In this document: piece after piece, positions 13,550 through 58,185 of the stretch
Layout of the letters: every line of letters begins with the position of its first letter
Numbering within the stretch: position 1 is the first letter of the stretch
Assembly: GCA_943736015.1 (NCBI GenBank)
Contig: OX031071.1
Location: forward strand, 28,614,619-28,678,618
Reading direction: 5' to 3'
DNA from: Tridacna crocea
Taxonomy: Eukaryota; Mollusca; Bivalvia; Cardiida; Cardiidae
DNA length: 64,000 nucleotides
Position numbers and translations under genes: made by a program
The notes under the pieces: generated by a model
The model's database searches: none
What the model saw: the letters and a program-made list of their open reading frames with translations, nothing else
Told to the model about the DNA's origin: nothing

Positions 13550-13743
13550 AAAAGAATTCTGCTACAGGTCCGTTCGAATGTGCAATATGTGGCAAACAAT
13601 TCATGTGGATGTCCCATTTCGAGCGGCATATGAGAATACACACAGGAGAAAAACCTTTCGAGTGCAACGTGTGTGGAAAGAGATTTTCTGTGAAAAATAA
13701 CATGAAATCACACATGATACAACACTTTAAGGTTCAACTTTGA
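13550..13743 (+). CDS. C2H2 zinc-finger pair, terminal exon 1
   Basis: The exon follows a pyrimidine-rich acceptor (TTGTACTTTCAG) ending at 13549 and enters in phase 1. It encodes 63 full codons. Finger 1 has C10, C13, H26, H30; finger 2 has C38, C41, H54, H58; the linker is TGEKPF. Both fingers fit C-x2-C-x12-H-x3-H. Predicted base-contact residues (-1, 2, 3, 6) are W, S, H, R in finger 1 and V, N, N, S in finger 2. A five-residue tail (FKVQL) and a stop end the protein, so this is a last exon. The product is probably a nuclear DNA-binding factor whose N-terminal part is encoded elsewhere. An ATG at 13525, upstream of the acceptor, keeps the frame open but lies in intron-like sequence, so I do not use it as the start. 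Confidence 0.85.
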
Positions 13744-13771
13744 TGTGTGACTGTGGATTATGGTTTATGTT

Positions 13772-14000
13772 TTAACCCTTTACTCCATAGATACTCATTT
13801 CTACGCATTGCTTGTAGGAGCCTTTGGAAAACATTGTGGCAAAAGGTGAAATTGCTCGTGACGAGCAATTTCACCTTTTGTCACAATGTTTTCAATGCTG
13901 TCAAAAGGTTTCATATACTCATAAGAAACGGCTTCATCCTTGCTGTTATTTAGGGTCAATTAGAGATAACATAGAAATGCCTTATGGAGTAAAGGGTTAA
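13772..14000 (+). mobile_element. TTAA palindromic MITE, subfamily C
   Basis: TTAACCCTTTACTCCATAGA start, loop TTGCTCGTGACGAGCAA, and a distinctive right arm (GAAACGGCTTCATCCTTGCT). Very like 51693-51921. Confidence 0.88.
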
Positions 14001-14197
14001 CTTTTTACCAAATGATTAGACTTTAGATTGGTCGAAATCAAGAGCCATTGCAGACGATAAATAAATCTGGTTCAGATGGAAGGATTTTTCTTTGAATGGT
14101 TAGAAAACATTTTTGGAAAAGGACACAATGATGCTTACCAGCATTTTCTCTATTTCCCACGATACTTTCAAAAGCTTTCTTCCTTGGGGTCTCTCAA
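13997..14197 (-). mobile_element. TTAA palindromic MITE, diverged
   Basis: Shares the TTAA at 13997-14000 with the previous element. Confidence 0.65.
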
Positions 14198-14418
14198 CCT
14201 TTACCAAACATTTCCTGGTTTTGAGGATCCCTAGAAAAGAAGCCTTCTGTGAACAGTGGGAAAAGGAGGAAATGCTGGTAACCATCCTTTTCTTCTTTTC
14301 CCACAATGTTTTCTACTCGACCAAAGTCAAGTTGCAATTTTTGAGTCCGGTTTATTTTGTAGTCTGCAAAAGCTGTAAGTTTACTTGTCTAAAATTTTGT
14401 CATTTGGTAAAGAATTAT
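14196..14418 (+). mobile_element. TTAA palindromic MITE, diverged
   Basis: CCTTTACCAAACATTTCCTG start; hairpin partly decayed. Confidence 0.7.
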
Positions 14419-14440
14419 CTCAGAAACGTGTAGTAATGGG

Positions 14441-14663
14441 TTAACCCATTACAAAACGACAATATTTTAGGCTTGTCCACATCGAAAGCATTGCAGACGA
14501 CAAAAAAAAGTGACTCAAAATTTGAAATTTGTTTTGTGAAGGGTAGAAAATATTGTGGGAAAAGGAGAGCTAGTTACCTGCATTTTCTCCTTTCCTCACA
14601 ATGTTTTCAAAAGCTTTCTCCTTCAGGGGTGTTAAAAGTCGTCATTGTGTGGTAAAGGGTTAA
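14441..14663 (-). mobile_element. TTAA palindromic MITE
   Basis: Both TTAA ends present; hairpin left arm has a small deletion. Confidence 0.8.
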
Positions 14664-14696
14664 AGAGTCCCATGGTACTCTCTTTAGATTTTAAAA

Positions 14697-14921
14697 TATC
14701 TCTTTCCCAAATGACACAAATTTGGAAGCAACCAAATTCAAAGGTTTGCAGAAGATAGACTAAATATAGCCAAAGTGAGGGTTTTTTGTCTTTGATACTG
14801 AAGAAAACATTTTGGGAATGGGAGAAACCGATGGTTACCAGCATTTTGTCCTTTTTCCATAATGCTTTTGAAAGCTTTCTTTATCAAGATGGTTAAAAAC
14901 TGTGATTGTGTGATATAGGTT
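14697..14921 (-). mobile_element. TTAA palindromic MITE, diverged
   Basis: Ends eroded; loop CGATGGTTACCAGCATT. Confidence 0.6.
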
Positions 14922-14960
14922 CATTTGATAAAGGGAATTTTTAACTTACAAGAGAAATCC

Positions 14961-15071
14961 TTAACCGTTTACAGTTTAAGTCTATACCAAATTACAAATT
15001 TGAAGACTTGTCCAAATTTAAAGCAGTTGCAGACAACAAATTAAGTGTGAGCCAAAAGAGGGTTTTTTCCA
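14961..15071 (-). mobile_element. TTAA palindromic MITE, left-end fragment
   Basis: GACTTGTCCAAATTTAAAGC then GCAGACAACAAATT; truncated where the next copy begins. Confidence 0.55.
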
Positions 15072-15299
15072 TTAACTCTTTACCACACGAGAAAATTTAG
15101 ACTGGTCCAAATTGAAAGCATTTGCAGACGACAAAATAAAGGTGACTCAAAAATAGAAATTTGTTCTGGGAAGGGTAGAAAACACTGTGGGAAAAGGAGA
15201 AAATGCTGGTTACCAGCATTTTCTCCTTTTCCCACAGAGTTTTCAAAAGGCTTCTTTCTCAGGGGCGTCAAAAGTAGGGATTGTGTGGTAATGGGTTAA
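15072..15299 (-). mobile_element. TTAA palindromic MITE, hairpin nearly perfect
   Basis: Very similar to 41986-42214 and, reversed, to 47646-47874: a young subgroup with CACGAGAAAA ends. Confidence 0.9.
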
Positions 15300-15431
15300 A
15301 GAAGCAAATATCATTATGTGAAAAATGAGAAAATGACGAATATCAAAGTTTTCTTTCTTTCCCAGAATGTTTTCTATATAACCATTAGATGATGGGTGAC
15401 ATCCCAATGAGCTTCAATCTAATTGTGAGCT

Positions 15432-15661
15432 TTAACCCAATTCCAACACAATCCCTACTTTTGATGACCCTGTGGTAGACGCCTTTCGAAAACATTGTGG
15501 GAAAAGAAGAAAATGCTGGTAACCAGCATTTTCTCCTTTTCCCACAGTATTTTCTACCCTTCACAAAACATCTTTCAAATTTTCAGTCACTTTTATTTTG
15601 TCATCTGCAAATGCTTTTGAAATGGACAAGCCTAAAATATTGTCATTAGGTAATGAGTTAA
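15432..15661 (+). mobile_element. TTAA palindromic MITE
   Basis: Both TTAA ends present. Confidence 0.88.
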
Positions 15662-15935
15662 TCAAAATCAAGAATAATTGTTAAAAAACAAGATATTTCA
15701 ATTGATACAGAAATAAAAAGACTTAGTCAAAAAGAGACTGTATCCTTTATATTCCCAGCACATTAATTTAGTAAGTCAAAAAAAAAAAGGAAAACCTGTG
15801 CACTTTAGAGGTAATAACTTACGTCCAATACACTTGAAGCCTGATTGGAACAGCATCAGAAAAAATTCATCTTAAGGGAAACTAGAACAGGCTACTTGAT
15901 TATTTGATAGAAAAGAGAAAAAAACTTTCTACTGT

Positions 15936-16024
15936 TTAACTCTTTACCTATACAACAAACATTTAGGCCTGTCATAATTGAAAGCATTTGCAGGCTACAA
16001 TAATTAGTTTGGTTCTAAAGATAG
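15936..16024 (-). mobile_element. TTAA palindromic MITE, first part (continues 16428-16582)
   Basis: Split by the CATCTTCGCAAGCC MITE. Confidence 0.75.
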
Positions 16025-16427
16025 CATCTTCGCAAGCCAAGGCTGACGATTCACTATGCTACTTTACCCTCGGCGGATCGAGCTCGATTTTTACATTCCC
16101 ACGATACGCTTTTTCATTGGATGCAGCCAGCTCTGACTACGAAGAATGAAATTGCTGGTAGCATTTCATCTTTGATAAAAATAGAACAAGGTTGCTACCG
16201 TTCGAATAGAAGGTAGACATGGAAACCCATGTGGAATGTCTGCTTATTGCTTCATGTGTAATCGTGAGCGGTTTGTAAAACAATATTACATTGGCTTTTA
16301 GAAATATGATTTAAAGGGGGGTAATAACCAGCATCCAATAGAGGGTGCATTGTAGGAATCTCGAAATTCAGCTCAATCAGCCAAGGTAAGATCCACGTAG
16401 TGATCGTAACCTTGGCTTGCGAAGATG
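16025..16427 (+). mobile_element. ~400-bp TIR MITE, copy 1
   Basis: Perfect 18-bp TIRs CATCTTCGCAAGCCAAGG. Flanks AAAGATAG and AAAGAATAG suggest an 8-9-bp target duplication with one indel (hAT or Mutator-type). It interrupts a palindromic MITE. Confidence 0.75.
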
Positions 16428-16582
16428 AAAGAATAGAAGATATTTTGATTTAGTAGAAAACATAGCAGGAAATGGAAAAAAAATGCTGGTTACCAGCATT
16501 TTCTCCTTTTCCCACAATGTTTTTATAAGCCATCTTTGTATTAGATTTTAAAACTAAGGATTAATAATGTGTGGTAAAGAGT
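16428..16582 (-). mobile_element. TTAA palindromic MITE, second part
   Basis: Contains the hairpin and the GTGTGGTAAAGAGTT end. Confidence 0.75.
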
Positions 16583-16786
16583 TCAGATTAGGGCACCCCA
16601 ATGGGATTCTTGAAATATTGCCTTTCATAACTAAAATTATATAGTTTTGGTGATTTGTTATCTATGCAGGAAACCAGTGTGTATCGGGTAATCGATTACG
16701 AATTACCAGTGTCGTAGCCAAATTGGTATGTTTTTTGGGAAGTGAAAGGTCATGTTACAAGAATCCCCCATTAGGTTGCCCTAATC

Positions 16787-17020
16787 TTAACCCTTTGCCA
16801 CATAATCCCGACTCTTAAAGACCCTGATAAAGAAAGGTTTTGAAAACATTGTGGGAAAAGGAGAAAATGCTGGTAACCAGCATTTTCTCCTTTTTCCACA
16901 ATGTTTTTCTCCCTTTCCAAATTAATTTTCAATTTTTGATTCACATTTATTTTGTCATCTGCAAAATGAATGCTTTCAATTTGGACTGGTCCAAAATTTT
17001 GTCATTTAGTAAAGTGTTAA
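16787..17020 (+). mobile_element. TTAA palindromic MITE before exon 2
   Basis: Both TTAA ends; 58 nt lie between its right TTAA and exon 2. Confidence 0.88.
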
Positions 17021-17041
17021 TGTCTTGTAAAAAGCGATTAA

Positions 17042-17600
<559 letters not shown>

Positions 17601-17828
17601 TTTAGTACTGTTAGTGAAGACCATTCCTTCATGCATGGCATTGTCCCGATTTAAAATACAATTTGTGACTACTGTTTTGGGGAGATATTCTTTGCTCAGT
17701 GGCTATGGTATTGATCTTTTAAACTCGAAAAACGAGGATACAGTCAAATCTGAGTAAGCGGTCATACCTGAACAGCGGCTGATCTATTGACAACGGCCAC
17801 TCGAATTCCAACAGTGCAATTTTCTTCT

Positions 17829-18074
17829 TTAACCCATTACCACACAATCCCTACTTTTGACGCCCCTGAGAAAGAAGCCTTTTGAAAACACTGTGGGAAA
17901 AGGAGAAAATGCTGGTAACCAGCATTTTCTCCTTTTCCCACAGTGTTTTTTTTCCCACAGTGTTTTCTACCCTTCTCAGAACAAATCTCAATTTTTCAGT
18001 CACCTTTATTTGGTCGTCTGCAATTGCTTTCAATTTGGACCAGTCTAAAATTTTCTGGTGTGGTAGAGAGTTAA
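17829..18074 (+). mobile_element. TTAA palindromic MITE with duplicated hairpin end
   Basis: TTTTCCCACAGTGTTTT occurs twice in a row at 17932-17966. Confidence 0.88.
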
Positions 18075-18344
18075 TTGCACTGTGTATAGCGTGATATTGT
18101 GAAATGCAGCCAGAGGTCACATTAATTGGTCGGGATCAACAGTTTATCACTTCTAAACAAAGGTCAGCTGAGACAACACACGACCTAATTTGTCGGATAG
18201 GGAAAAGCGATAATTAACACTATACTGCAGTTATTGACGAAGTTGACTACACAATGTAAAACATGCAAACAGACAATTACAGATTATACAACTCCTAATT
18301 ATAGGTAAATGACTACAATTGTTGTTTTTTTTCATGTTTGATTT

Positions 18345-18573
18345 TTAATCCATTACAACACAATCCCTACTTTTGACTCCCCTGAGGAAGAAGCCTTTAG
18401 AAATCATTGTGGGAAAAGAAGAAAATGCTGGTAGCCAGCATTTTCTCCTTTTCCCACAATGTTTTCTACCTTTCACAAAACAAATTTGAAATTTTGGGAC
18501 ACTTTTATTTTGTCGTCTGCAAATGCTTTCGATTTGGACAAAGCTAAAATTGTGTCATTTGGTAACGAGTTAA
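18345..18573 (+). mobile_element. TTAA palindromic MITE
   Basis: Loop TGCTGGTAGCCAGCA has one mismatch at the centre. Confidence 0.87.
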
Positions 18574-18657
18574 AGGATGAATGGCAATGAGAGTTTATCG
18601 GTATTTTTGCAGATGGGTAATTTGTTGTTACAATATGAAATTGAACATCACGTCAAT

Positions 18658-18886
18658 TTAACCCTTTCCCAAACGACAAATTTTTGGACTAGACCAAATT
18701 GAAAGCATTTGCAGATGACAATTCATTTCTTGCTGAAAAGATGATTTTTGTCTATGATAGGGTAGAAAACATTGTGGGAATAGGAGAAAATGCTGGTTAC
18801 CAGCATTTTCTCCTTTTCTCACAATGTTTTCAAAAGACTACTATTCCAGACCCGTAAAAACCAGGGATTGTTTGGGAAAGGGTTAA
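18658..18886 (-). mobile_element. TTAA palindromic MITE, 'AGACCCGTAAAAACCAGG' type
   Basis: Both TTAA ends; immediately precedes the pogo-like fragment. Confidence 0.9.
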
Positions 18887-18904
18887 GTATGTAATGGAAA
18901 TGTA

Positions 18905-19223
18905 AATTCCTCTCTCTCTGAGGACCATGTGAAAATTGTTCAAATGCTTGAATCTGGACGTTCTTCATGGATTATTGCTACTGACTTCGGCGTAGGCCGC
19001 ACACAAATTCAGAGTGTTGCAAAACGCATACGAGAAATTTTAGAGGAGTTCGAAAGTGGTGACCCTCGTTCTAAACGAATCAAAAAGAATGTCTTTTATG
19101 AAGAGGTTGATGCTCTGTGCTATAAATGGTTCTGGATGCTACATCTCGGCAAATTAATGTGTCTTTCTAATCAAAGAGAAAGCTCTCAAATTCGCTGCAG
19201 ATGTAAATTAAGTTTTTACATGC
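18905..19223 (+). pseudogene. pogo/Tigger-type transposase fragment (CENP-B-like N-terminal HTH)
   Basis: The frame reading SEDHVKIVQMLESGRSSW… then FGVGRTQIQSVAKRIREIL matches the N-terminal helix-turn-helix of pogo/Tigger transposases and CENP-B. It continues with a KNVFYEEVDALCYKWF segment typical of the second DNA-binding domain. A one-base frame change near 19135 is then needed to continue into FLIKEKALKFAADVN, the expected next motif, which ends in a stop. No DDE catalytic domain follows. I read it as a truncated, frameshifted relic of a DNA transposon. Confidence 0.65.
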
Positions 19224-19807
19224 TTTCTTGCAAACAATGCTTTCTTGCAAACACTTTAGATGAACGTAGTATAACACACGAAACCTGTGAGCACTATTAT
19301 TGTTAAATATGATGGAAAAGGATCGAAAAGGAAAATAAATCTTTTAAATCAAATTCTTTTATTCGAGTCTTCTTTTGTACATAATGTGAGGCAGAAGTTC
19401 ATTGCGACATACACAAGATGATTCAACAAGCTAGAACATTATACAGTACTGCAAAGTACCAACTATAGTATGATAATAATGTGCAGTAAATAAGCACTGT
19501 GAACAGCAGCCAATCTTTCTTGCAAACAATGCTTTCTTGCAAACACTTTAGATGAACGTAGTATAACACACGAAACCTGTGAGCACTATTATTGTTAAAT
19601 ATGATGGAAAAGGATCGAAAAGGAAAATAAATCTTTTAAATCAAATTCTTTTATTCGAGTCTTCTTTTGTACATAATGTGAGGCAGAAGTTCATCGCGAC
19701 ATACACAAGATGATTCAACAAGCTAGAACATTATACAGTACTGCAAAGTACCAACTATAGTATGATAATAATGTGCAGTAAATAAGCACTGTGTACAGCA
19801 GCCAATT
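19224..19807 (+). repeat. 292-bp tandem duplication
   Basis: Two adjacent units (19224-19515 and 19516-19807) differ at only a few positions. Each starts TTTCTTGCAAACAATGC and ends in a CAGCAGCCAAT word. The unit begins within the tail of the pogo-like fragment. Confidence 0.9.
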
Positions 19808-19880
19808 TGTGTACAGCAACCAATTTGTGTACAGCAGCCAATCTGTGAACAGCAGCCAATCTATGGACAGCAGCCAATTG
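19790..19880 (+). repeat. 18-bp minisatellite
   Basis: Five imperfect copies of TGTGTACAGCAGCCAATT at the end of the 292-bp duplication. An inverted copy (TGGCTGCTGTGCACAAATTT) follows at about 19896. Confidence 0.8.
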
Positions 19881-19915
19881 GGCACATTCCCTTGACTGGC
19901 TGCTGTGCACAAATT

Positions 19916-20699
19916 TGACTATTTATCTGTCATTGGTTCGAATCCTGCCAGATATTGTTTGTATTTTGGCCATGCATTTGTTACAAACTTCAACGTTTGT
20001 AGGAGTACTCCTGATCTGGAGCCACTTATAAAAAGTCTTAAATTGTCTTGGTATTTAGCTACTTATTAATAGACCTTTATGTTTATTATTAGCTTCACTG
20101 GCTGAGGGCAAGCTGGGTTATGTCATGGCTCTTGTCTGTCTTGCGTGGGTGAGTCAGGGCTTCCCCTGCAAGTTTTAATTTTTGTGCCATCAAATTCGCC
20201 ACCTCATAAAAATTGAGTCCAATAGGAGCCAACTGAGGTAGCCACATAATACATTAGACACTTCAGTTTATTGGCCAATGTTAAAGCTTCTAAATACATT
20301 GCTCAGTATTGCTGTACAAGGTTACTTATGTTCCTTTTCCCCCAATGGTTTTCAAGGTTTTGATTTGCAGGGACATAGAATTTGTATTTGAACAGTAATA
20401 CAGCTCCATAATTCTGTGACTGTAAATCTGTTAGAATTCTGTCAGCTTTTAAGAAATTCAGGAAGAAATTTGGGATTGTGTGGTGAAGAGTAACATCATT
20501 TCTTCTCTTATCCTAAAAAATATTTAAGTTTTATTTTTCAAAATGTCCTTTTATTCTGGTCTTTTCTCTTCAGTATGAGTGTCCTATATAGTTACTTGTT
20601 CCTGTGCTATCACTAAGACAAAGTGGCCTACAAAGTGTAATTCCCCCCCCATTCATTCAGCATTTTCACATCTTAAAATCATCTGTGTTTTTTCCTCAT
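19916..20699. other. mostly unassigned; one decayed MITE near 20320-20490
   Basis: CCTTTTCCCCCAATGGTTTT and GGGATTGTGTGGTGAAGAGT are MITE remnants. A run of C lies near 20645. No gene is seen. Confidence 0.4.
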
Positions 20700-21060
20700 T
20701 ATAAGACATATTTTAGCACCTACTTTAAAGTTTTATACATATATTTGTGTAAACTTATTGTTTAAAGTCATCATCAAAGCTAAAGACAGTCTGAAATGCT
20801 TTTGATCGCACAACGTCAAACTGACATCATGTTGTGTCATGGGTTTTCACCTTTTATTCTGCGATCCATTTTTTCATATCGGTTAATTTTCAGAAGATTT
20901 TCGGCATTATAGTGTATAAAATTTTCGGTATATGTAGCATCTAACTTCAAAATCTGTCATTTTTACGCTAGATAAGCAGATCATTACCATATATCATGTT
21001 TTTCATTGACAACATCCATAAATACACACAATAAATTTCTAGCCAGTACGTGTTCGTTGA
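20700..21060 (+). repeat. dispersed repeat, related to 26460-26780
   Basis: It shares GTTTAAAGTCAT, TTGTGTCATGGGTTT and GTAGCATCTAACTTCAAAA-like blocks with 26460-26780, about 65-70% similar by eye. Origin unknown. Confidence 0.5.
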
Positions 21061-21377
21061 CCAGGTAAGGCATGATGAAGGCGTGGTTTTAGAAATTAAG
21101 GGCGGCCACTAAATCATGTATCTGATTTCTGATTGGTTTGATAAAGGGTGGTCAAAGGGCGTGGCGAAATATTGATATTCAATTGTTTAGCATTGCGTGG
21201 TGTGTATGCAAGTATGGTGTGTAATTTAAACAAGACTCTTCAAGAAAGCCAGCCTGGTAAGGTGTGATAAACAGTTATGCGAGCTTCCTTTACACTTGAT
21301 ACATACTGTGTATGTCAGAGGATAGTTTATAAACATTTACTTGTCGCCAATACATTTGCCATTTTTGGTGCCATTTT

Positions 21378-22625
21378 TAGCTCACCTGAGCACGTGTTCA
21401 AGGGGAACTTTTAGGATCTACCGGTGTCCGTGGTCTGTAGTGCGTCATGAACAATTCTTTAAACATCAACTCCTCCTAAACTGTAGGGCTAATTTGGACC
21501 AGACTTGGCAGGAATGTTCCTTGGGAGGTCCCCTTTAAAAATGGTTCACAGAATTTGACTCCGTCAAAAACTCTGGTTGCCATGGCAACCAAATGGAATT
21601 TTCTAAGAAATTCTTTAAAAATCTTCTCTGAAACCGCTGGCCTGATTTTGAAATAATTTCACAGAGTTGTTCCTTGGGTGACCCTTTTCAAAAACTGTTC
21701 TTGAAATTTTGATCTGTCAAGAAACATGGCTCTGGTGAATGGGGGCTCCTTGCACTATGCAGAAATGAAGAAATTCTTAAAGATTCTTCTTCTCTGAAAC
21801 CGCTGGTCAGATTTTGAAAAAAACTCTCAGGAATGTTCTTTGGGTGACCCTTTTCAAAATTTGTTTGCGAAATTTTGATTGGTCAAGAAACATGGCTCTG
21901 GTGAATGGGGGTTACTTGCACTATAGGGAAATGAAGAAATTCTTGAAAACTCTTCTTCTCTGAACTGCTGGACAGATTTTGAAATAATTTCACAGAGATG
22001 TTCCTTGGGTGACTCTTTCCAAGAAATGTTCATGAAATTTTGATCCATCAAGAAACATGGCTCTGGTGAATTGGGGCTTCTTGCACTATACAGAAATGAA
22101 GAAATTCTTGAAAATTCTTCTTCTCTGAAACCCCAGGACAGATTTTAAAATAATTTGACAGATATGTTCCTTGGGTGACCCTTTTCAAAATATATAATTT
22201 TGATCCATCAAGAAACATGGCTTTTGTGAATGGGGGCTACTTGCACTATATGGACATGATGAAATTCTTGAAAATTCTTTTTCTCTGAAACCCAAGGTTA
22301 GATTTGAAAAGAATTTTTCAGCAATGTTCCTTGGGTGACCCTTTTCAAAACTTGTTTTGTAAATTTTGATCCATCAAGAAACATGGCTCTCGTGGATGGG
22401 GGCTACTTGCTCTTATATAGAAATGAAGAATTCTTAAAAATTCTTCTTTTTGAAACTGATGTTCAGATTTCGAAATGACTTTTACAGGTGACCTTTTGAA
22501 AATTGCTTGGCAAAATTATAATTTTGGTTCCCATGTTTCAATACCTCAAAAAAAAAAAAAAAAATGAGCTATGGTCATCTCAAAAATTCAGATGAGCGAT
22601 CCAGGGCCATCTTGTCCCTCTTGTT
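21378..22625 (+). mobile_element. Helitron-like element, copy C
   Basis: The 5' hairpin is partly lost (GAGCACGTGTTC). It has six or so core units and a 3' end, CAGATGAGCGATCCAGGGCC, whose hairpin is weakened by a G-to-T change. Confidence 0.65.
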
Positions 22626-48265: not shown

Positions 48266-48442
48266 CATGGTGAAGGGTTAATTATCGTGCTGTTTTGATC
48301 CCAAATCTGACGGCACATTCTGTGTAGTCTGGCCTTACCTCTATGCTGTCTACAAAAATATCTTTTACCATTTGCATCCCAGGTGACAAGAATATGAATC
48401 AAAAGATCCACTTTTAACAGCCAGTATTTTTTGTAAAAGAGT

Positions 48443-48640: not shown

Positions 48641-48837
48641 TATGTAAACTTTCATCTTAGAAAATGTGTGTTTTTTAAAAAAAAGTGGATAAGTATTCAA
48701 AAAAAAAATCCCCAGTGTCTTGTTATGTATGAGCAAAATTAGTAAATACTAGAAGAAACAAAGTTTGTTGGAATTTGAAAAATAAAAGGTTTCAATCAGA
48801 GCAGAAAACTGTGTTTGCATTATGTAATTATGCATAT

Positions 48838-49197
48838 CTTGACATGAGGCTTTTAAGCAGGTATTGACAAGATTCTTTCATGCAATATTGACATGATGCT
48901 TTTCTGCATAGATTGACATGATGCTTTTAGATACATACATTGACATGATGTCTTATGCGTATCTTGACATGATTCTTTTATGCATATATGGACATAATGT
49001 CTTTATGCATTATATTGACATGATTCTTTTCTGCATATATTGACATGATGTCTTTATGCATATATTGACATGACCCTTTTATGTATATATTGACATGATT
49101 CTTTATATTGACATGATGTCTTTATGCATATATTGAAATGACTCTTTTTATGTATATTTTGACATCATTCTTTTATGCATATATTGACATGATTCTC
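48838..49197 (+). repeat. ~25-30-bp minisatellite, about 13 units
   Basis: Units of ATATTGACATGATTCTTTTATGC with frequent ATGCATAT palindromes. Confidence 0.85.
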
Positions 49198-49229
49198 TTG
49201 GCTGTTGATTAATGTCAAGAACTTATATT

Positions 49230-49450
49230 TAAACTTTACCAAACAACAAAGTTATAGACTTGTCCAAACTGAAAGCATTTGCAGATGGCCAACGTGAGTC
49301 AAAAATTGAAATTTGACTTTAGAAGAGTAGAAAACAATGTAGGAAAATGAGATAATGCTGGTTACCAGGATTTTCTCCTTTTCCTAAATGTTTTGGAAAG
49401 GCTTCTCTCTAAGGGTTGTTAAAAATAGGGATTGTGTGGTAAAGAGATAA
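49230..49450 (-). mobile_element. TTAA palindromic MITE
   Basis: Loop AATGCTGGTTACCAGGATT. Confidence 0.78.
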
Positions 49451-49740
49451 CAAACAAATCCAGTTTAATGAGCCCGAGAGAGTAGACTTTTGAAAGTCAT
49501 AAATGTTGTGGGAAAAGGAGAAAGCATTGAGAAATTGTCATTGCCATAGTTGTAGTTTGTACAATATCTCTCCAAAACTTAACATTTCCTCATATCTATG
49601 TCAATTTCAGTTTACGTGTTCACTATGAACAGGGGAACCTACAATTTAAAAGTTACATCCCTTATTCAACCTCTAACCTTCTAGAAAATAAACCTCTAGT
49701 ACTGAAGAATCATGGCATCCACAAGCAATACTCTTGTGAT
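49451..49740. other. mostly unassigned
   Basis: A decayed MITE left arm (AATGTTGTGGGAAAAGGAGA) lies near 49500; nothing else is recognised. Confidence 0.4.
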
Positions 49741-49926
49741 ATCCTTTACCACACAAAGGCTTTTTAAAGACACTGAAGAACTGGCTGTTTGAAAACATTG
49801 TGGGAAAAGGAGAAAATGCTGGTTACCAGAAAAATTGTGTCTAGACTTTTGAGCCAATATGAAATCCTTGTCTGCAAATGTTATCAATTTGGATAGGTCT
49901 AAAATTTTGCCATGTGGTTAAGGGTA
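49741..49926 (+). mobile_element. TTAA palindromic MITE, hairpin right arm deleted
   Basis: TGCTGGTTACCAGAAAAATT junction. Confidence 0.75.
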
Positions 49927-49969
49927 AACCCTTTACCACACAATTCAGGGCCAAACTCTGGTAGACTTG

Positions 49970-50112
49970 TCCTGGGTAGCTCGTTGCTAGCCTATCTGAC
50001 TGGTGATCATGTGGTCATACGTTCCATACCTGCTTCAGGCAAACTTTCTATCGGGCTATATTTCCACTCTCCATTCTGATGTATGTGAGAAAAGTAGTCT
50101 CTGAAAGTGACT
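49970..50112 (+). mobile_element. tRNA-SINE fragment
   Basis: GGGTAGCTCGTTGCTAGCCT, then ACGTTCCATACCTG and GATGTATGTGAGAAAAGTAG of the SINE body. Confidence 0.45.
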
Positions 50113-50205
50113 TAACCTTTTACTGCTCAACAAAATTTTAGACCTGTCGAAAATGAAAGCATTTGCTGATGACACTTTCATTGTGGCTCATATGGAATGA
50201 TTTTC
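50112..50205 (-). mobile_element. TTAA palindromic MITE, left-end fragment
   Basis: CTTTTACTGCTCAACAAAAT then GAAAGCATTTGCTGATGACA. Confidence 0.6.
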
Positions 50206-50207
50206 CT

Positions 50208-50433
50208 TTAACTAAGTACCAAACAACAAAATTTAGGGTTTGTCCAAACTGAAAGCATTTGCAGATGACAAAATAGAAGTGACTGAAAATTTGAATTTTT
50301 TTTTGTGAAGGGTAGAAAACATTGTGAGAAAATGAGAAAATGCTGGTTACCAGTATTTTCTCCTTTTCTCACAATGTTTTCAAAATCTTTCTCTTTCAGA
50401 GGTTAAAAGTTGTCAATGTGTGATAAAGGGTTG
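50208..50433 (-). mobile_element. TTAA palindromic MITE
   Basis: Loop TGCTGGTTACCAGTA. Confidence 0.82.
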
Positions 50434-50439
50434 ATACAC

Positions 50440-50655
50440 AGACAGTTGTATCAGTACTGGTGTGAGAAAGGTAGGATACACATGCGTAGGTGCACTCGTG
50501 GCCTTGATACGACCCCAAAAGAGAGTCAAACTTTGGTAGAGCAGTCAGTAGTATATAGACATAAGAACAGGGGGTGCTAGTTCAAATCCCTACCTCAGCA
50601 AATTCCTTTCCATGGATTGATTATAGTAATTGTGGCAGGATGTATTCCTCTCTTG
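50440..50655 (+). mobile_element. SINE tail fragment followed by a tRNA-like head
   Basis: GTACTGGTGTGAGAAAGGTA is a SINE tail piece. GTAGAGCAGTCAGTAGTATA with GGTGCTAGTTCAAATCCC is a tRNA-like head of a second SINE type. Confidence 0.4.
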
Positions 50656-50970
50656 CCGAGCCCTGGTAGCTCAGTCGCTAGGGTGTAGGACTTGAGAACA
50701 CGGGGTCTGGGGTTCGATCCCTGGCTACGACCCCTGGCTCAGCCAATTTCTTTCCAAGGATTGATGATACTGCGACAGGATTCATTCTTCTCCGACCGCT
50801 GACCATTGTTCCAACGGTGATCATGTGGGAAAGCAGCCAATGTCTTGGAAAGAAAATTGTTGGGAAGTACTGGTAAAAGAAACTCCAGGAACGAATGGAT
50901 AGGTATACAGGCCGCCGCAATATAACTGAAATAATGTTGAAAATGGCATTAAATACCATACAATCAAAGT
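50656..50970 (+). mobile_element. tRNA-derived SINE, second type
   Basis: Box A-like CTGGTAGCTCAGTCGCTAGG and box B-like GGGGTTCGATCCCTGG are well kept. The body shares the AGTACTGGTAAAAGAAACTC and GGCATTAAATACCATACAAT tail with other molluscan-type SINEs. Confidence 0.65.
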
Positions 50971-50987
50971 TAGTGATTGAAGTTTTT

Positions 50988-51581
50988 GGCTCACCAGAGC
51001 ATAATATACTCATAGGAAGGTTTTGGGATCACTCTGTGTCCGTTGTTTGTCGTCCGTTGTCTATCAACAATTTTTTTTAACATCAACTCTTCCTAAACTG
51101 CAAGGCCGATTTGGACCAAACTTGACTGGAAATTTCCTCGGGAGGTCCTCTTTTAAAGTTGTTCACAGAATTTGATTCCATCAAAAACTCTGGTTGCCAT
51201 GGCAACAAAATGGAATTTTTAAAGAAATTCTTTCACAGAATTGCTCTATGGGTGACCCTTTTCAAAAAGTGGTCGCAAAATTTTGATCCCTCAAAACACA
51301 TGGCCATAGTTTGGAGGGAGGGAGGGGGGGGGGGGGGGCGCGCTCCTTGCTCTGTATTGACTTAAAGAAATTCAAATATGTTAGAGAAATTTGATCCGTC
51401 AAGAAACAAGGCTTTGGTGGTGGGGTGCTATTTGCACTATATGGACATGAAGAAATTCTTAAAATTTCTTCTTCTATTGAAGTTACTATGGAAGAGAAAG
51501 TTTTGGGATAACAAAGAAAACTGGCAATGGTCTACTCTGATATTCGGGTGAGCAATCCAGGGTCATCTTTGCCCTCTTGTT
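50988..51581 (+). mobile_element. Helitron-like element, copy E (short, diverged)
   Basis: GGCTCACCAGAGC start and CGGGTGAGCAATCCAGGGTC end, with one to two core units and the poly(G) tract. Confidence 0.55.
51312..51340 (+). repeat. poly(G) tract
   Basis: GGAGGGAGGG followed by an uninterrupted run of about 15 G, inside a Helitron-like copy. Confidence 0.9.
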
Positions 51582-51664
51582 TATGTGAAACAATGGTGTT
51601 CCAAGAGATAACCGGTGACTGATATGAGCTCTTGACCAAATGACAACATTTTGGACTTGCCCAA

Positions 51665-52120
51665 TTAACCCTTTACCACACAATCCTGACTTTTAACCCT
51701 TTACTCCATAGATACTCATTTTTACGCATTGCTTGTAGGAGCCTTTGGAAAACATTGTGGCAAAAGGTGAAATTGCTCGTGACGAGCAATTTCACCTTTT
51801 GCCACAATGTTTTCTATGCTATCAAAAGGTGTAATTTTCACCTTAGAAACGGCTTCATCCTTGCTGTTATTTAGGGTCAATTAGAGATACCATAGAAATG
51901 CCTCATGGGGTAAAGGGTTAACACCCCTGTGAAATAAGCCCTTTGAAAACATTGTGGGAAAAGGAGAAGATGCTGGTTACCAGCATTTTCTCCTTTTCCC
52001 CACAATGTTTTCTACCCTGCTGAAAACAAATTTCAATTGTTGAGTTGCGTTTATTTTGTAGTCTGCAGTGAACTTTCAATTAGGGCCAGTCTAAAATTTT
52101 GTTGTTTGGTAAAGGGTTAA
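51665..52120 (+). mobile_element. TTAA palindromic MITE containing another MITE (51693-51921)
   Basis: The outer copy runs 51665-51696 and resumes at 51918. Both of its own TTAA ends are present (51665, 52117). Confidence 0.9.
51693..51921 (+). mobile_element. TTAA palindromic MITE, subfamily C, inserted in another MITE
   Basis: The inserted element is flanked by TTAA on both sides, and the outer element's GACTTTTAA / TTAACACCCC reads correctly when one TTAA is removed. Near-identical to 13772-14000. Confidence 0.9.
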
Positions 52121-52273
52121 GAGCATTTGCAGACAACAAATACAGTTTAGCAAAAATGATCATTTATCTTTGAACAAACAAAAAGACATCGTAGGAAAAG
52201 ATTATGTCTTATAATTAATTTTATAAAAGGAGCAAATGCAGGGAAAAGTAGGGATTGGGTGGTAATGTGTTAA
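52121..52273 (-). mobile_element. TTAA palindromic MITE, decayed, before exon 6
   Basis: Loop lost; ends GGGATTGGGTGGTAATGTGT then TAA. Exactly 54 nt separate its TTAA from exon 6. Confidence 0.7.
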
Positions 52274-52327
52274 AAGATGTTCCACTTGTTAGTGCCAAAA
52301 GTATTTTTTTCTCATTTTTTTTTTCAG

Positions 52328-52533
52328 AAATAAATACAGATCTGGATTTGCCGAGTGGGAGACATGAATGCTCATATTGCGGAAAACTGTTTGCAAAAAA
52401 GTCTGCACTTACTCTACATGAACGCATACACACTGGAGAAAAACCGTTTGGTTGTAAAGTGTGCGGAAAACGCTTTAATCAGAAAGGAAATATGCGTTCC
52501 CACATGCTCACACACATACAGACAAAATATTGA
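52328..52533 (+). CDS. C2H2 zinc-finger pair, terminal exon 6
   Basis: The acceptor lies at the end of a long T-run (TTTTTTTTTTCAG, AG at 52326-52327); entry is in phase 1, with TGA at 52531-52533. Finger 1 is CSYCGKLFAKKSALTLHERIH, the linker is TGEKPF, finger 2 is CKVCGKRFNQKGNMRSHMLTH and the tail is IQTKY. Contact residues are K, S, A, L and Q, G, N, S. Length, layout and tail match exon 5. A deleted MITE ends 54 nt before the exon, and a MITE broken by a Helitron-like element starts just after it. Confidence 0.87.
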
Positions 52534-52542
52534 TCATCGGCT

Positions 52543-52645
52543 CTTTAACTCTTTACTGCACAATTCTGAATTTTAACTTCTCTGAAAAACAAACCTTTTA
52601 AAAAGCATCATGGGAAAAAGAGAATATGATGGCAACAAGCCTTTT
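52543..52645 (+). mobile_element. TTAA palindromic MITE, left part (right part 53881-54004)
   Basis: Split by Helitron-like copy D inside a T-rich stretch. Confidence 0.7.
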
Positions 52646-53880
52646 TAGCTCGCCTGAGCACAACATGCTCAAGGGGAGCTTTTAGGATCACCCGGTGTCT
52701 GTCGTCCGTCGTGCGTTGTCCACAATTTTTTAAACATAACTCCTCCTAAACCACTGGGCAAATTGGGCCAAACCTGGCTGGATTTTTTCTTTGGAGGTCC
52801 TTTTTAAAAATTGTTCACAGAATTTAATTTTGTTTAAAACTCTGGTTGCCATGGTAACTAAATGGAATTTTCAAAGAAATTCTTTAAAAATCTTCTTCTC
52901 TGAAACCGCTGGCCAGATTTTGAAATAATTTCACAGGGATGTTTCTTGGGTGACCCTTTTCAAAAAGTGTTTGCAAAATTTTGATCTGTCAAGAAACATG
53001 GCTCTGGTGAATGGGGGCTACTTGCACTATACAGAAGTGAAGAAATTCTTAAAAATTCTTCTTCTCTGAAACCGCTGATCAGATTTTGAAATAATTTCTC
53101 AGGGATGTTCTTTGGGTGACCCTTTTCAAAACTTGTTCGCGAAATTTTGATGTGTCAAGAAACATGGCTCTGGTGAATGGGGGCTACTTGCACTATACAG
53201 AAATGAAGAAATTCTTGAATATTTTTCTTCTCTGAAATGGCTTGTCAGATTTTAAAATAATTTCACAGAGATGTTCCTTAGGTGACCCTTTTCTAAAATT
53301 GTTAGTGAAATTTTGATCCATGAAGAAACATGGCTCTAGTGAATGGGGGCTACTTGCACTATAGGGAAATGCAGAAATTCTTGAAAATTCTTCTTCTCTG
53401 AAACTGCTGGTCAGATTTTAGAATAATTTCACAGCGATGTTCCTTGGGTGACCCTTTTCAAAAGTTGTTTGTGAAATTTTGATCTGTCAAGAAATATGGC
53501 TCTGGTGAATGGGGGCCACTCGCCTTTTATGGACATGAAGACATTTTTGAAAATTCTTCTTTGCTGGTCAGATTTTAAAATAATTTCACAGAGATGTTCC
53601 TTGGGTGACCCTTTTCACAAAGTATTCGCTAAATTGTGATCCATCAAGAAACATGGCTCTGGTGAATGGGGGCAACTTGCACTATACAGAAATGAAGAAA
53701 TTCTTAAAAATTCTTCTTTTCTTAAACTGATGGTCAGATTTTGAAATGACTTTTACTGGTGACCTTTTGCTTGACAAAGTAATAATTTTGTTTCCAATGT
53801 TTCAATACCTCAAAAAAAAAATAGGCTGTGGTCCTCTCAAAATTCATGTGAGCGATCCAGGGCCATCTTGGCCCTCTTGT
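52646..53880 (+). mobile_element. Helitron-like element, copy D
   Basis: The 5' hairpin is GAGCAC-AACAT-GCTC; six core units; 3' hairpin intact. It interrupts a palindromic MITE just downstream of zinc-finger exon 6. Confidence 0.65.
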
Positions 53881-54004
53881 CTCTTTTTCCCAAAATGTTT
53901 TCTGCTATATGAAAGATTAACTTTAAGGTTTATAGTTACACCTAAATTGTCCCTTGCAATTTTTTCCATTCAAGTAGGGCTTAGATTTTACCGTGTGGTA
54001 AAAA
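53881..54004 (+). mobile_element. TTAA palindromic MITE, right part
   Basis: CTCTTTTTCCCAAAATGTTT to ACCGTGTGGTAAAAA; diverged. Confidence 0.6.
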
Positions 54005-54044
54005 AAAGGTGACAAAAAGTTGACAGACACAGATCATTTGAAGA

Positions 54045-54170
54045 TTATAAGAGAACAGTCTGTGGAAAAAACATTTTGTGGTGCACATGGAAGCTCGCTT
54101 TAAGTTGGAATTTTGTGTTTGAGCACATACAGACCAAAATTTACTCATGGCTGTGAAAAGAACATAAAGA
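54045..54170 (+). pseudogene. possible decayed zinc-finger exon
   Basis: The stretch GAGCACATACAGACCAAAATTT followed by ATGGCTGTGAAA closely resembles the end of exon 5 (ACACACATACAGACAAAAATTT…GTGGCTGTTAAA). Weak finger-1-like sequence (GTCTGTGGAAAAAACATTTTG) lies before it. No open frame with two fingers remains. Confidence 0.4.
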
Positions 54171-54228
54171 ATTCAAATAAATAAGAGAACACATTCCTCG
54201 GCAGAAAACCTTAATGACAATTTTGGCT

Positions 54229-54451
54229 AACTCATTACCACACAATCCCTACTTTTGATAACCCGGAGAAAGAAGCCTTTAGAAAACATTCTGGGAAAAG
54301 GAGAAAATGCTGGTAACCAGCATTTTCTCCTTTTTCCACGTTTTCTACCCATCACAAAACAAATATTAAATTTTCAGTCACTTCTATTTTGTCGTCTGCA
54401 CCTGCTTTCAATTTGGACAAACCTACAATTTTGTCATTTGGTAAGAGTTAA
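54229..54451 (+). mobile_element. TTAA palindromic MITE
   Basis: Hairpin right arm has a small deletion (TTTTTCCACGTTTTC). Lies between the two decayed finger relics. Confidence 0.85.
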
Positions 54452-54559
54452 TTAGGAAATAAATTTGTGTTTGCATAATTACAGTCATATTCTAGAACAT
54501 ATACTCAAACAATTGATACTTGGTTGTGTACTGAATGAATATGAAATTCAAACAGTGAG

Positions 54560-54645
54560 AAATTATTTGGGGGCTGGCACTATTTGTGATGTGTGAGGAA
54601 TACTTCAATCAGAAAAGAACTTTGTATTTGCATACATTATGAACC
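54560..54645 (+). pseudogene. decayed zinc-finger exon (finger 2 remnant)
   Basis: The bases at 54578-54621 align with finger 2 of exon 5: TTTGTGATGTGTGAGGAATA then CTTCAATCAGAAAAGAA, against the exon 5 TTTGTGTGTAATGTGTGTGG and CTTCAATCAGAAAAGAAATA. A small deletion and a GGT-to-GAGG change destroy the second cysteine and the frame, and the histidine part has drifted. It sits between exons 6 and 7 and looks like a lost member of the array. Confidence 0.6.
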
Positions 54646-54672
54646 ATACTGTGTGGAAAAAAAGAAAAAGGC

Positions 54673-54903
54673 TTAACTTGTTATCGGACAACAAAATTTT
54701 AGACTGGTTCAAATTGGAAACATCAGTAGATGACAAAATTAAAGTGACTCTAGAAATTGAAATATGTTTTGGTAAGGTAGAAAACATTGTGGAGAAAGGA
54801 GAAAAGGCTGGTTATTAGCATTTTCTCTTTTTCCCCCACAATGTTTTCAAAAGGCTTCTTACTCAGGGTCGTGAAAACCCAGGATTGTGTGGTAAAGCGT
54901 TAA
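54673..54903 (-). mobile_element. TTAA palindromic MITE
   Basis: Both TTAA ends; loop AGGCTGGTTATTAGCATT. Confidence 0.85.
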
Positions 54904-55227
54904 AGATGCACCCTTGCTGCCAGAAAGTAAACAATCGCTGCTAAAACTTTACAGTGTGTAGAATCTAGAAAGCTGTGAAAACCTGATAAAAAATGTATTA
55001 TATGAAGAGATGTCAGGGATTTGCCTTCGATTTAAACCAAAACTGTGGTCGTTATGTCTATGGCTAGCTGCAATAAAGTGAAATGTATTTTCTACCCGTT
55101 GTAATCTGTGCAAACTTGCAACTGTCAGGGGCAACATTTGGTAGGAAGGTACAAGAATGATTATAATTTCATAAAATAAGGATAAAATTTGTTGCAAAAC
55201 TGGATTAAAACGAGTAACAATGTATCT
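54904..55227. other. no recognised feature
   Basis: Unique-looking sequence with a minus-strand 82-codon frame of no known family. Confidence 0.4.
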
Positions 55228-55456
55228 TTAACCCGTTACCACACAATCCCTACTTTTGAAGCCCCTGAGATTGAAGCCTTTAGAAAACATTGTGGGAAAA
55301 GGAGAAAATGCTGGTATCCAGCATTTTCTCCTTTTCCCTCAATGTTTTCTACTCTTCACAAAACAAATTTCAAATTTTCAGTCACTTTTATTTTGTCGTC
55401 TGCAAATGCTTTCAATTTGGACCAGTCTAAAATATTGTCATCTGGTAATGGGTTAA
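55228..55456 (+). mobile_element. TTAA palindromic MITE
   Basis: Both TTAA ends; loop TGCTGGTATCCAGCA. Confidence 0.9.
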
Positions 55457-55597
55457 TGCTTTGCTGTTTGCCAAAGAATTGATGGTGAAATTACTGCTAG
55501 TCTTTACCCTATTTAGATCGGAAAACTTTGCTTGAAATATGAAATTTGGCTTCAAAAATAAAGAAAACTTTGCAAGAAAAACACTAGCATCTTTGCC

Positions 55598-55812
55598 AGT
55601 TGCCAAATGACAAAATTTTAGACTTGTCCAAATTGAAGGCATTTGCAGACTACAAAATTAACATGTCTAAAAAATTGAAATTTGTTCTGGGAGGATATAA
55701 AAAATTGTAGGAAAAGGAGAAAATGCTGGTCATTAGCATTTTCTCCTTTTTCCACAATGTTTCCGAAAATCTTCTTCTTCAGAGTCATGAAAACCAGAAA
55801 TTGCCTGAGAAA
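55598..55812 (-). mobile_element. TTAA palindromic MITE, cut by hAT element
   Basis: Resumes briefly at 57187 (CTGAGAAAGGTTATAA). Confidence 0.75.
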
Positions 55813-57186
55813 CAAGGTTGGGCGGTCGGAACCAGGAGTGGTTTTAAGCGGCGATTTTAACTGGTTAAAGTGGTCGATTGGATATTTGAAGTGGTCATTT
55901 GGAAATTTTAATGGTCAGATGAATTTAAAGAGGATAGTCATGCCATTTAGTGCATGATTTATTGTGGGTTTTTGTTCTTTTTTTGGTTCCAAGTTTGATT
56001 AATTCACCAATTGATATGAAAGAGTTGAGTGGAAAAATTGTTTTGTTCCAGCCAAGGCCACTTATCAGCGGACAGGAATTACTGAGTGTAAAAGCTCCTT
56101 GTATTTCTGTAAATATGGAATATTATTAAAAATACTGTAATAACTTCCCTAGTACGGTACTCGTACTTGATTTTAGCAACCAGAGAAAATTTGATATTGT
56201 GCAAGAGTGGAGTTCAAGTGAGATGTTGAAATTTTCTTGCTTGGTAAAAATCAAATACTACCATCAGAAAGTACTGCAATATAATGTTTTCCTCTCTATA
56301 AAAGTTCCAAATAAGGTCTTTAGGTTTCATTTTTGACACCTTAAGTAACTGCTTGATGATAAGATATTGTCTTGATTGCATATAAGTCAGTATTTCACAC
56401 TATTGGAATAAGGCCTGGTGTCAAGATAAATACCCCAAATAGGGATACATGATTGGTCCCTATTGTAATTTAAGCCACACGCTCTCGGATAGAAAGGAGC
56501 AACTTTTACACCTTTTAATGTGTTTTGACAACAATTTAAAAGTGTAGGTAGACACTTAAAAGTGCTTCAGACACAAATGTATAACTATTGTTTTGTTTAA
56601 TCAATTACATCTTCTTCATGCATACCTCAGTATGCCTTGATTAATGACAGGTGTATTTCACATGTTTACGAACAGGTAACACTTTTTTCTGCAATTTTGA
56701 ATGAAAATTTCAAATTAGCTGCTTTTCGATGCTACCTCTGAACTTTTATGTCTAAAGACTATGTTAAAATAATCTAAATTTTTAAAACCTTAGAACTATA
56801 AACAGTTATCTAACCTATAAGGAATGATGATAGATAAATGGTTAAAAAGAATTGACCTGCATGTAAGTTCAAAAAGGAAAGTCAATCCAATCAACCTCTT
56901 TAGTTGACCAGCAATAATATTTTTTGAATTATGATCAAATAAAAAAAGGACCCTATTCATAGAAACTATTATACTGATGATAACATGTAATATACCTTCA
57001 GTGCAAGATGTAGGGGGAGAGCTTCTAAGACTAGTTTAGAAACAGGACAGGTATGCAAGTCAGTGATTTAATTGACCCAATCAACCACTCCAATTGACCA
57101 CCAATCGACCAGTATTGACGGGTTTTAACCGGTTAAAACCGCCGGCCCGGTCAATACTCGTATTGACCGGCTTTTTGCCAACCTTG
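55813..57186. mobile_element. non-autonomous hAT-type element
   Basis: Ends CAAGGTTGG…CCAACCTTG with a perfect 8-bp target duplication CTGAGAAA (55805-55812 and 57187-57194), diagnostic of hAT. It is 1374 bp long with no coding capacity. Subterminal regions contain inverted TTTTAACTGGTTAAA-like and GACCGG-like words. It interrupts a palindromic MITE. Confidence 0.8.
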
Positions 57187-57207
57187 CTGAGAAAGGTTAT
57201 AAACTTT

Positions 57208-57362
57208 TACTGCACACAATCCCTAGTTTTAATGGGTGAGAGAAAGAATGCTGGTAACCAGCATTTTCTCTTTTTCCCATACTGTTTTGTATTCTTTCAA
57301 ATAAAAATCCTGTCCTTCAGTTTGGACAAGTCTAGAATTTTGTCATCTTGTATAGGGATCAA
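57208..57362 (+). mobile_element. TTAA palindromic MITE, hairpin left arm deleted
   Basis: GAGAGAAAGAATGCTGGTAA junction. Confidence 0.7.
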
Positions 57363-57678
57363 CCCACTACCACACAATACCGAGTTTTAAAGACCCTGAA
57401 CAAGAGGGCTTTCAAAAACATCATGATGTAAAGAAGGATGCTAGTTACCAGCATCTTCTATTTTTTCCACAATTTTTATTACTCTGTTGAATACCAAGCC
57501 CATCAGATGACATAACAAATGTGAGTGAAAAATTGAAAATCGGTTTCGGGAGGGTAGAAAACATTGTAGATCAAGGAGAAAATGCTGGTTACCAGCATTT
57601 TCTCCTTTTCCCACAATGTTTTCAAAAGGCTTCTTTCTCAGGTTTGTTTTAAGTCGGGATTGTGTGGTAAAGAGTTAA
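57359..57678 (+). mobile_element. two fused TTAA palindromic MITE halves
   Basis: A plus-orientation left half (57359-57490) runs into a minus-orientation right half with its own hairpin (57500-57678). Both outer ends are of the AATCCC type. Confidence 0.65.
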
Positions 57679-57787
57679 TGGTTTTCTACAGGGTGACAAC
57701 ATAGTTCAAGATGTGACTGTGTTTGTATAATGTCATCCAGAATTTATGCTGACTCCAGAAGTATTTTTCTTTAAGTTTTCCTGTGGG

Positions 57788-57841
57788 CTAGGCTTTCAAT
57801 TTGGAACAGTCTAAAAACTTTTTTGTCAGGTAAAGAGTTAA
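57788..57841 (+). mobile_element. TTAA palindromic MITE, right-end fragment before exon 7
   Basis: CTTTCAATTTGGAACAGTCT to GTAAAGAGTTAA. Exactly 54 nt separate its TTAA from exon 7. Confidence 0.75.
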
Positions 57842-57895
57842 ACCAGAGCATGGTTCATTTTAGAGTGCCAATGACCTTTTTGTATCATTTTTCAG

Positions 57896-58185
57896 AAACA
57901 AGTAGAGACAAGTATTCACAGAAAGGAAAACTAAAATGCTCATTTTGCAGAAAAGAGTTCCCAAGCAAGGCTGCACTTATCACTCATGAGAGAGTTCACA
58001 CTGGGGAAAAACCGTTTGTGTGTGATGTGTGTGGAAAAGGGTTCACTCAGAAAGGAAACATGCGCTCTCATATGATTATGCATATACGGAGCTATGACAC
58101 CTTTTCGTCGGTTGAAAACCAGAACCTAGTATATGCTATTTTTGAAATTTTTCAGGGGGACCAAAAAACTGTCTCAAAGATTTAA
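57896..58185 (+). CDS. C2H2 zinc-finger pair, terminal exon 7, with transposon-derived tail
   Basis: The acceptor (TATCATTTTTCAG) ends at 57895; entry is in phase 1. Finger 1 (CSFCRKEFPSKAALITHERVH) has Arg in place of the usual Gly after the second Cys; the linker is TGEKPF; finger 2 is CDVCGKGFTQKGNMRSHMIMH. Contact residues are S, A, A, T and Q, G, N, S. The frame continues after HIRSYDTFSS into the left end of the 5.0-kb transposon starting at 58110. The last 24 residues (VENQNLVYAIF… to the stop at 58183-58185) are therefore transposon sequence. Sibling exons stop within 5-12 residues of finger 2, so the native stop has been displaced. Both fingers are intact, so the product may still work. 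Confidence 0.85.

Follow-up and report, generated by a model that had tools for sequence, protein, structure and literature searches.

How are seven short exons, each coding for two C2H2 zinc fingers and little else, made into proteins? The question is raised by a stretch of 64,000 nucleotides of the bivalve Tridacna crocea (contig OX031071.1, C16 in the following), called here the window, whose positions are converted into C16 coordinates by adding 28614618. In a preliminary description, made from the letters alone, the seven exons were read as interchangeable last exons of a common part lying upstream. The analysis presented here supports this reading, and we consider it highly probable that the locus is one transcription-factor gene, formed by three constant coding 5' exons, referred to below as the hub, and at least 12 alternative terminal exons.

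The claim that each of the seven exons, all on the plus strand, begins with a phase-1 acceptor, carries two fingers and then stops stood up to acceptor scoring, finger patterns and reading frames. The finger pairs are located at window positions 13573, 17120, 27780, 41029, 46637, 52363 and 57931, and C2H2 fingers were confirmed by Pfam in all seven exons. The best-scoring open-frame acceptor ahead of each pair is of phase 1 (7/7), and the frames reach a stop 5 to 33 residues past the second finger. The features of the array are as follows:

1..64000 (whole window), plus strand: part of the array locus, with the hub upstream and further terminal exons downstream, both outside the window
13550..13743, plus strand: terminal exon 1, phase-1 acceptor, two C2H2 fingers, TGA
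17079..17299, plus strand: terminal exon 2, phase-1 acceptor, two C2H2 fingers, TAG
27748..27968, plus strand: terminal exon 3, phase-1 acceptor, two C2H2 fingers, TAA
40994..41199, plus strand: terminal exon 4, phase-1 acceptor, two C2H2 fingers, TGA
46602..46807, plus strand: terminal exon 5, phase-1 acceptor, two C2H2 fingers, TGA
52328..52533, plus strand: terminal exon 6, phase-1 acceptor, two C2H2 fingers, TGA
57896..58185, plus strand: terminal exon 7, phase-1 acceptor, two C2H2 fingers, 33-residue tail, TAA
Near C16:28684684, 28690277, 28701719, 28714576 and 28720447 (the last match reaching 28720611), downstream of the window: at least five further terminal exons

The array thus comprises at least 12 terminal exons, so that of the array of seven first described the exons themselves stood, but the array extends beyond the window that holds them. 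Over the 200 kb preceding the window, a regular-expression scan gave no additional finger pair, and the four single C/H matches found there were not finger-pair-like.

The common part was found, as had been claimed, outside the window: three hub coding exons, placed by means of the proteins of relatives and of splice signals, are located 1.5-9.5 kb upstream of it. By a rough codon-usage score, a segment some 2 kb ahead of the window ranked fifth among all frames of either strand, and this segment sits in a 272-codon frame that corresponds to hub exon 3. The upstream exon with a phase-1 donor that the preliminary description predicted is most probably the third of those listed here (a slash marks the splice site):

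C16:28605155-28605244 (window -9463..-9374), plus strand: hub exon 1, coding part, contains MATPDMDVIKEIPGYKVILKAILKSQIQQL, phase-0 donor
C16:28610126-28610282 (window -4492..-4336), plus strand: hub exon 2, contains VEQLASCTDEESVILTASVSDGTLSHLGSDSGKFFLDDHEDIKSQFLGFCLK, phase-0 acceptor and phase-1 donor
C16:28612376-28613143 (window -2242..-1475), plus strand: hub exon 3, acceptor ATAAATAG/GACATC, phase-1 donor GGT TAT A/GTAAGT

The shared part amounts to a conserved N-terminal region of about 82 residues followed by a linker of about 256 residues. Hubs of this family can be recognised by the N-terminal region PGY[KR]VILKA...DGTLSHLGS encoded by exons 1 and 2, by a linker exon with EITGVE and by a phase-1 A/GT donor, and the predicted hub of the present locus carries all of them. 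This hub is identical to protein P0127 of Mya in 77/83 residues, and its linker contains VKIE and VKKE, which we take to fit the SUMO consensus (psi-K-x-E).

Protein searches placed this hub among bivalves, in agreement with the initial guess that the DNA came from a mollusc. The seven exons strung together returned mostly ordinary poly-finger proteins. Hub exon 3 gave 117 matches, the named ones belonging to Ruditapes philippinarum, Mya arenaria, Mercenaria mercenaria, Mactra antiquata and Dreissena polymorpha, and the N-terminal 90 residues of one relative, P0144, gave 212 matches, with the same five species as the named ones among the 120 listed. Many of these relatives are annotated isoform series, numbered up to X43, in which one N-terminal part is followed by differing finger pairs. 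A common N-terminal part with many alternative ends of two fingers is annotated in five clam species. Isoforms within one series are named sal-like, luna-like or myoneurin-like, and ZBTB-like names also occur among the relatives; the names seem to follow the exchangeable finger pair, suggesting that gene names mislead for this family.

The junction in these isoforms is also of the expected kind. From 134 proteins with the exon-1 motif, one without the linker motif as written and two without a recognisable junction were left unscored, and in 131/131 scored isoforms the residue after the shared ...GY or ...SY was K, N, S, R, T, I or M, all of which an ANN codon can provide, as demanded by a phase-1 donor ending in A. 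Among 132 isoform ends, 110 have two fingers, nine have three, nine have one, one has four and three have none, and in none of the 132 does a finger precede the linker motif.

The same arrangement is repeated in the T. crocea genome. In two genome searches with finger pairs 150/1501 and 150/1578 candidates were scored, so that the counts of pairs are lower bounds, and only listed matches in open frames shorter than 200 codons were counted; in the search with hub exon 2 all 38 candidates were scored, and 27 were matches. The union of the listed short-frame pairs comes to 148, of which 138 share the strand of a hub and follow it downstream within 200 kb, at distances of up to 175 kb, ten lie far from any hub, and none lies on the wrong side or the wrong strand of one. 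The 138 pairs form 14 hub-led groups, with 27, 21, 20, 18, 17, 12, 12, 3, 2, 2, 1, 1, 1 and 1 listed pairs, seven groups thus having 12 or more. Eight of the 14 hubs and 118/138 pairs are on contig C16, and for 13 hub exon-2 matches no finger pair is listed. When the end of hub exon 3 was used as the query, eight matches came from nine candidates; they are confined to C16, and every one of them has a hub exon 2 next to it.

The entry phase was scored in 87 exons, namely the seven of the window and 80 fetched from the 89 listed outside it in seven arrays, with acceptor weights that follow the general consensus. The best open-frame acceptor is of phase 1 in 86/87 exons, compared with 1049, 1026 and 925 for phases 1, 2 and 0 in a control of 3000 random open frames of the region (acceptor score of 2 or more). 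When the open-frame condition was removed and the best acceptor within 260 bases was taken, phase 1 was still found in 76/87, with phase 0 in 7/87 and phase 2 in 4/87. On the donor side, hub exon 3 ends in A/GTAAGT, of phase 1, at all eight hubs read (A, B, C, D, E, F, H and I). A shared entry phase matching one upstream donor, as first proposed for the window alone, is thus predicted across the arrays. The exons are uniform in content too, with two fingers in 84, one in two and three in one; the median distance from the pair to the stop is 6 residues (86 exons), and 65/87 have no methionine between the acceptor and the first finger.

Exons, phases and strand order, as read from the genome, and the annotated isoforms of the relatives are thus established at the level of sequence, and they suggest how the locus may work. 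The transcript would start at the hub and run on into the array, where the last hub donor would be spliced to one of the phase-1 acceptors, and the chosen exon would supply a two-finger DNA-reading end and the stop. Each isoform would then have the same N-terminal region, the same linker with its two SUMO-type motifs and a finger pair of its own. The choice of the ending would probably be made by alternative splicing and polyadenylation in cis, from one promoter, and different ends may be directed to different sites.

The finger exons are under coding constraint. From 84 exons fitting a strict pair pattern, 18 pairs at least 70% alike were obtained and 13 independent duplicate pairs were kept, in which pN/pS, uncorrected for multiple hits, was lowest in the linker that separates the fingers (0.09) and highest at the four contact positions per finger (0.52), with 0.29 at the remaining finger positions. 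Positive selection at the contact residues is not supported by 0.52 against 0.29, given as uncorrected values. The seven zinc-ligand positions, with 0 nonsynonymous and 30 synonymous changes, were not used as evidence, because the selecting pattern itself demands those cysteines and histidines.

The sets of eight contact residues are all different among the 85 exons with a standard pair, and for 41/85 the nearest relative by sequence lies in the same array, against 11.6 expected, which supports that tandem duplication is real. The hub changes more slowly, the commonest residue having a share of 0.92 and 0.88 in the columns of hub exons 1 and 2 (18 distinct sequences). The best match between an ending of T. 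crocea and a foreign one was 67% over 51 residues (131 representative endings). Reciprocal best pairs of ends at 75% or more over 50 residues numbered two, both between Ruditapes and Mercenaria, with none in the other nine species pairs; orthologous ends may be hidden here, since the database is clustered at 90% and only the 131 representative ends were compared. With this proviso, endings seem to change faster than hubs.

Among the other explanations, the one that fares best is trans-splicing, in which terminal exons with promoters of their own would be joined to a separately made hub RNA, as has been reported in insects for mod(mdg4) and, in part, for lola. The 65/87 exons without a methionine before the fingers need a leader from elsewhere, which trans-splicing would supply, and distances of up to 175 kb between pair and hub also fit it. 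It would, however, tolerate exons on the other strand, whereas 138/138 hub-linked pairs are downstream on the strand of their hub, as cis joining needs. The order of hub and pairs on one strand argues for cis joining, and we regard trans-splicing as unlikely.

Serial joining, in which the pairs would be exons of one long poly-zinc-finger protein, could draw on the gene models P0001, P0002, P0005, P0008 and P0011, which string many pairs together, and on the 10/132 isoform ends with three or four fingers. Against it are the stop that closely follows each pair and the near lack of exits from the exons, a donor-like site of 5 bits or more being present in only 2/87 tails, a blunt test because the three donors of the hub itself score 2.9-3.9 on the same scale. 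Moreover, P0001 was seen by eye to lose the end of a second finger at its first junction and looks like a faulty prediction. Serial joining is very improbable in our opinion. Equally hard to credit is a set of small, independent zinc-finger genes that have promoters and leaders of their own and owe their common intron phase to tandem duplication of a single ancestor; the excess of nearest relatives within arrays would fit such genes, but the strict same-strand order behind the hub, the phase-matched donor at 8/8 hubs and the annotated isoforms with the hub part in front do not. Least probable of all are dead or mobile copies, that is, finger debris spread by transposons and never expressed, for although there are transposon fragments in the region, among them a copia-type frame at window 28831-33069 (minus strand), and one listed pair has an internal stop, the pN/pS of 0.09 and 0.29 in the duplicate pairs and the open frame with a phase-1 acceptor in 86/87 exons speak against them, both sets coming from a search for intact pairs and being biased to live copies.

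Several points weigh against the reading of the locus as one gene with alternative terminal exons. The isoforms of the relatives are database gene models rather than RNA reads, and 22/132 annotated ends do not have exactly two fingers, so that some ends differ, or the models are faulty, or some exons are joined. One exon of the phase test, L074, was scored as phase 0, and one array pair among 138, at C16:38469324, contains an internal stop. Poly(A) hexamers are not enriched after the seven stops of the window, the first lying 289 to 2762 bases away, where the random median is 520; being no nearer than chance, they were rejected as an added proof of terminal exons. The structural model of the N-terminal region is low in confidence, and the oligomerisation considered below is therefore a guess.

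Some other elements were observed in the window. The copia-type frame, of 1412 residues with a reverse transcriptase (RVT_2) match, lies between terminal exons 3 and 4. An identical C/H-rich frame of 24 residues, not a typical C2H2 finger, is present at 19223-19294 and 19515-19586, 292 bases apart. Inverted-repeat elements (AACCCTTTACTCC...GGAGTAAAGGGTT and GAAAACATTGTGG...) are found at 13743-14040 and at several places upstream, outside the exons; judged by eye, they look like MITE families.

Observations were also made on hub relatives elsewhere. Nine divergent hub exon-2 matches, of 45-54% identity and with no listed finger pair within 200 kb, are possible older family members with one ending or none:

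C17:1386930 and C17:1539524: divergent hub exon 2
C3:36524935: divergent hub exon 2
C10:29526142: divergent hub exon 2
C2:16053965, C2:18524917 and C2:13230946: divergent hub exon 2
C1:39812613: divergent hub exon 2
C13:37276548: divergent hub exon 2

On the contig of most arrays, a 2824-codon frame with several finger-pair matches (C16:20284621-20286780, minus strand) is perhaps an intronless poly-finger gene. In Mercenaria, the groups P0151-P0163 and P0167-P0175 represent two hubs whose N-terminal halves differ while the 3' half of the linker is nearly identical, as after gene conversion or recent duplication.

A search of the upstream part for a BTB or other dimerisation domain had been proposed, and none was found there by a genome search for BTB and by Pfam on hub exon 3 and P0144. 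The BTB search (150/177 candidates scored) gave 114 genome matches, none of them on C16 between 16.7 and 33.6 Mb, and a BTB-type hub was dropped as a candidate. Pfam recognised no family in hub exon 3 or in the first 91 residues of P0144, with KRAB, SET and SCAN likewise absent from both, and the N-terminal region had no convincing match among PDB sequences (best E 0.059). An AlphaFold2 model of P0144 (31 relatives) has helices at 15-37 and 62-105 of low to middling confidence, with block-mean pLDDT values of 41-83 over residues 1-110, an unstructured linker and well-modelled fingers. In a PDB fold search with this model the 50 rows shown were zinc-finger structures, and the modelled finger pair resembles BCL11A ZF2-3 and SALL ZFC4. 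Two zinc fingers alone read only about 6 bp, and because of this small reading end and of the insect parallels, our guess would be that two or more molecules associate through the N-terminal region.

A few endings of the relatives are of another type. In the fingerless P0219 (Dreissena polymorpha, LOC127864620 isoform X1), DNA-binding domains of the Tc5 and CENP-B types, scoring above the Pfam cut-offs, come after the N-terminal part of the hub, and in this gene model the ending appears from its domains to be a captured transposase ending. P0261 (Mya arenaria, LOC128205483 isoform X4), also fingerless, has a weak zf-Tnp_2 match (22.2 bits, cut-off 24), and P0153 (Ruditapes philippinarum) has a weak BEN match behind its finger (19.8 bits, cut-off 23.2). 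The third fingerless end, P0199, looks cut short. P0219, P0261 and P0153 support that the hub can accept other DNA-binding ends, at least in gene models.

The fast turnover, the variable contact residues and the captured transposase DNA-binding ends (in Dreissena, perhaps in Mya) would fit a role in genome defence. We put forward, as a tentative idea that is rather less likely to be right than wrong, that heterodont clams evolved a splice-assembled repertoire of DNA readers against transposons, made of a slow hub and one of more than 100 fast-evolving two-finger ends. If true, this would be a counterpart of the vertebrate KRAB zinc fingers built by exon choice rather than gene duplication, and different endings would possibly be used in different cells. 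Because turnover seems much faster in the endings than in the hub, these arrays lend themselves to a natural test of their purpose, be it developmental wiring as in lola or the recognition of invading DNA.

We compared the array with known systems. A limited literature search gave no description of such arrays, which does not establish that they are unpublished. With the SALL/Spalt proteins and BCL11A only the finger pair is shared. SALL/Spalt proteins have several finger pairs per protein, unlike the clam isoforms, with two fingers in 110/132 ends and none ahead of the linker motif; the rest of the clam protein has no Pfam match, and the sal-like names do not show descent. The vertebrate KRAB zinc-finger genes and PRDM9 resemble the clam arrays in a fast-changing finger repertoire, variable DNA-contact residues and a constant effector part. 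Their repertoire arises by whole-gene duplication or by changes in the finger array, whereas that of the clams comes from duplicated terminal exons behind one hub, in which KRAB, SET and SCAN find no match, and a clam exon has no long tandem finger array as KRAB proteins do (two fingers in 84/87).

The closest parallels are in insects. In mod(mdg4) of Drosophila a BTB constant part is joined, by trans-splicing, to alternative 3' exons on both strands with zinc-binding FLYWCH ends; the clam arrays share the joining of a constant part to such 3' exons, but have C2H2 ends, no BTB as far as found and a single strand, none of the 138 pairs near hubs being on the opposite one. In lola (longitudinals lacking), as here, a constant 5' part precedes many alternative terminal exons with one or two C2H2 fingers and a shared junction phase. 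It differs in that its constant part is BTB, that it is one locus in insects, against at least 14 hub-led groups here, and that its ends are conserved among insects, whereas few clam ends could be matched between species. In sequence, the features of the lola/mod(mdg4) type found here are the shared entry phase behind one donor and the short finger end followed by a stop; the array works like these genes but lacks, as far as tested, the BTB that defines them, and it is not a member of their class. What had been suggested as a different, possibly independently expanded molluscan instance thus gains support. The layout known from lola and mod(mdg4) appears here in a bivalve, with a constant part that is unrelated to theirs, and it is repeated behind at least 14 hubs, to which 138 listed finger pairs belong. 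Ruditapes, Mya, Mercenaria, Mactra and Dreissena are presumably all heterodont bivalves, and the most fitting description is that of a multi-locus variant of the lola/mod(mdg4)-like layout that evolved independently in heterodont bivalves.

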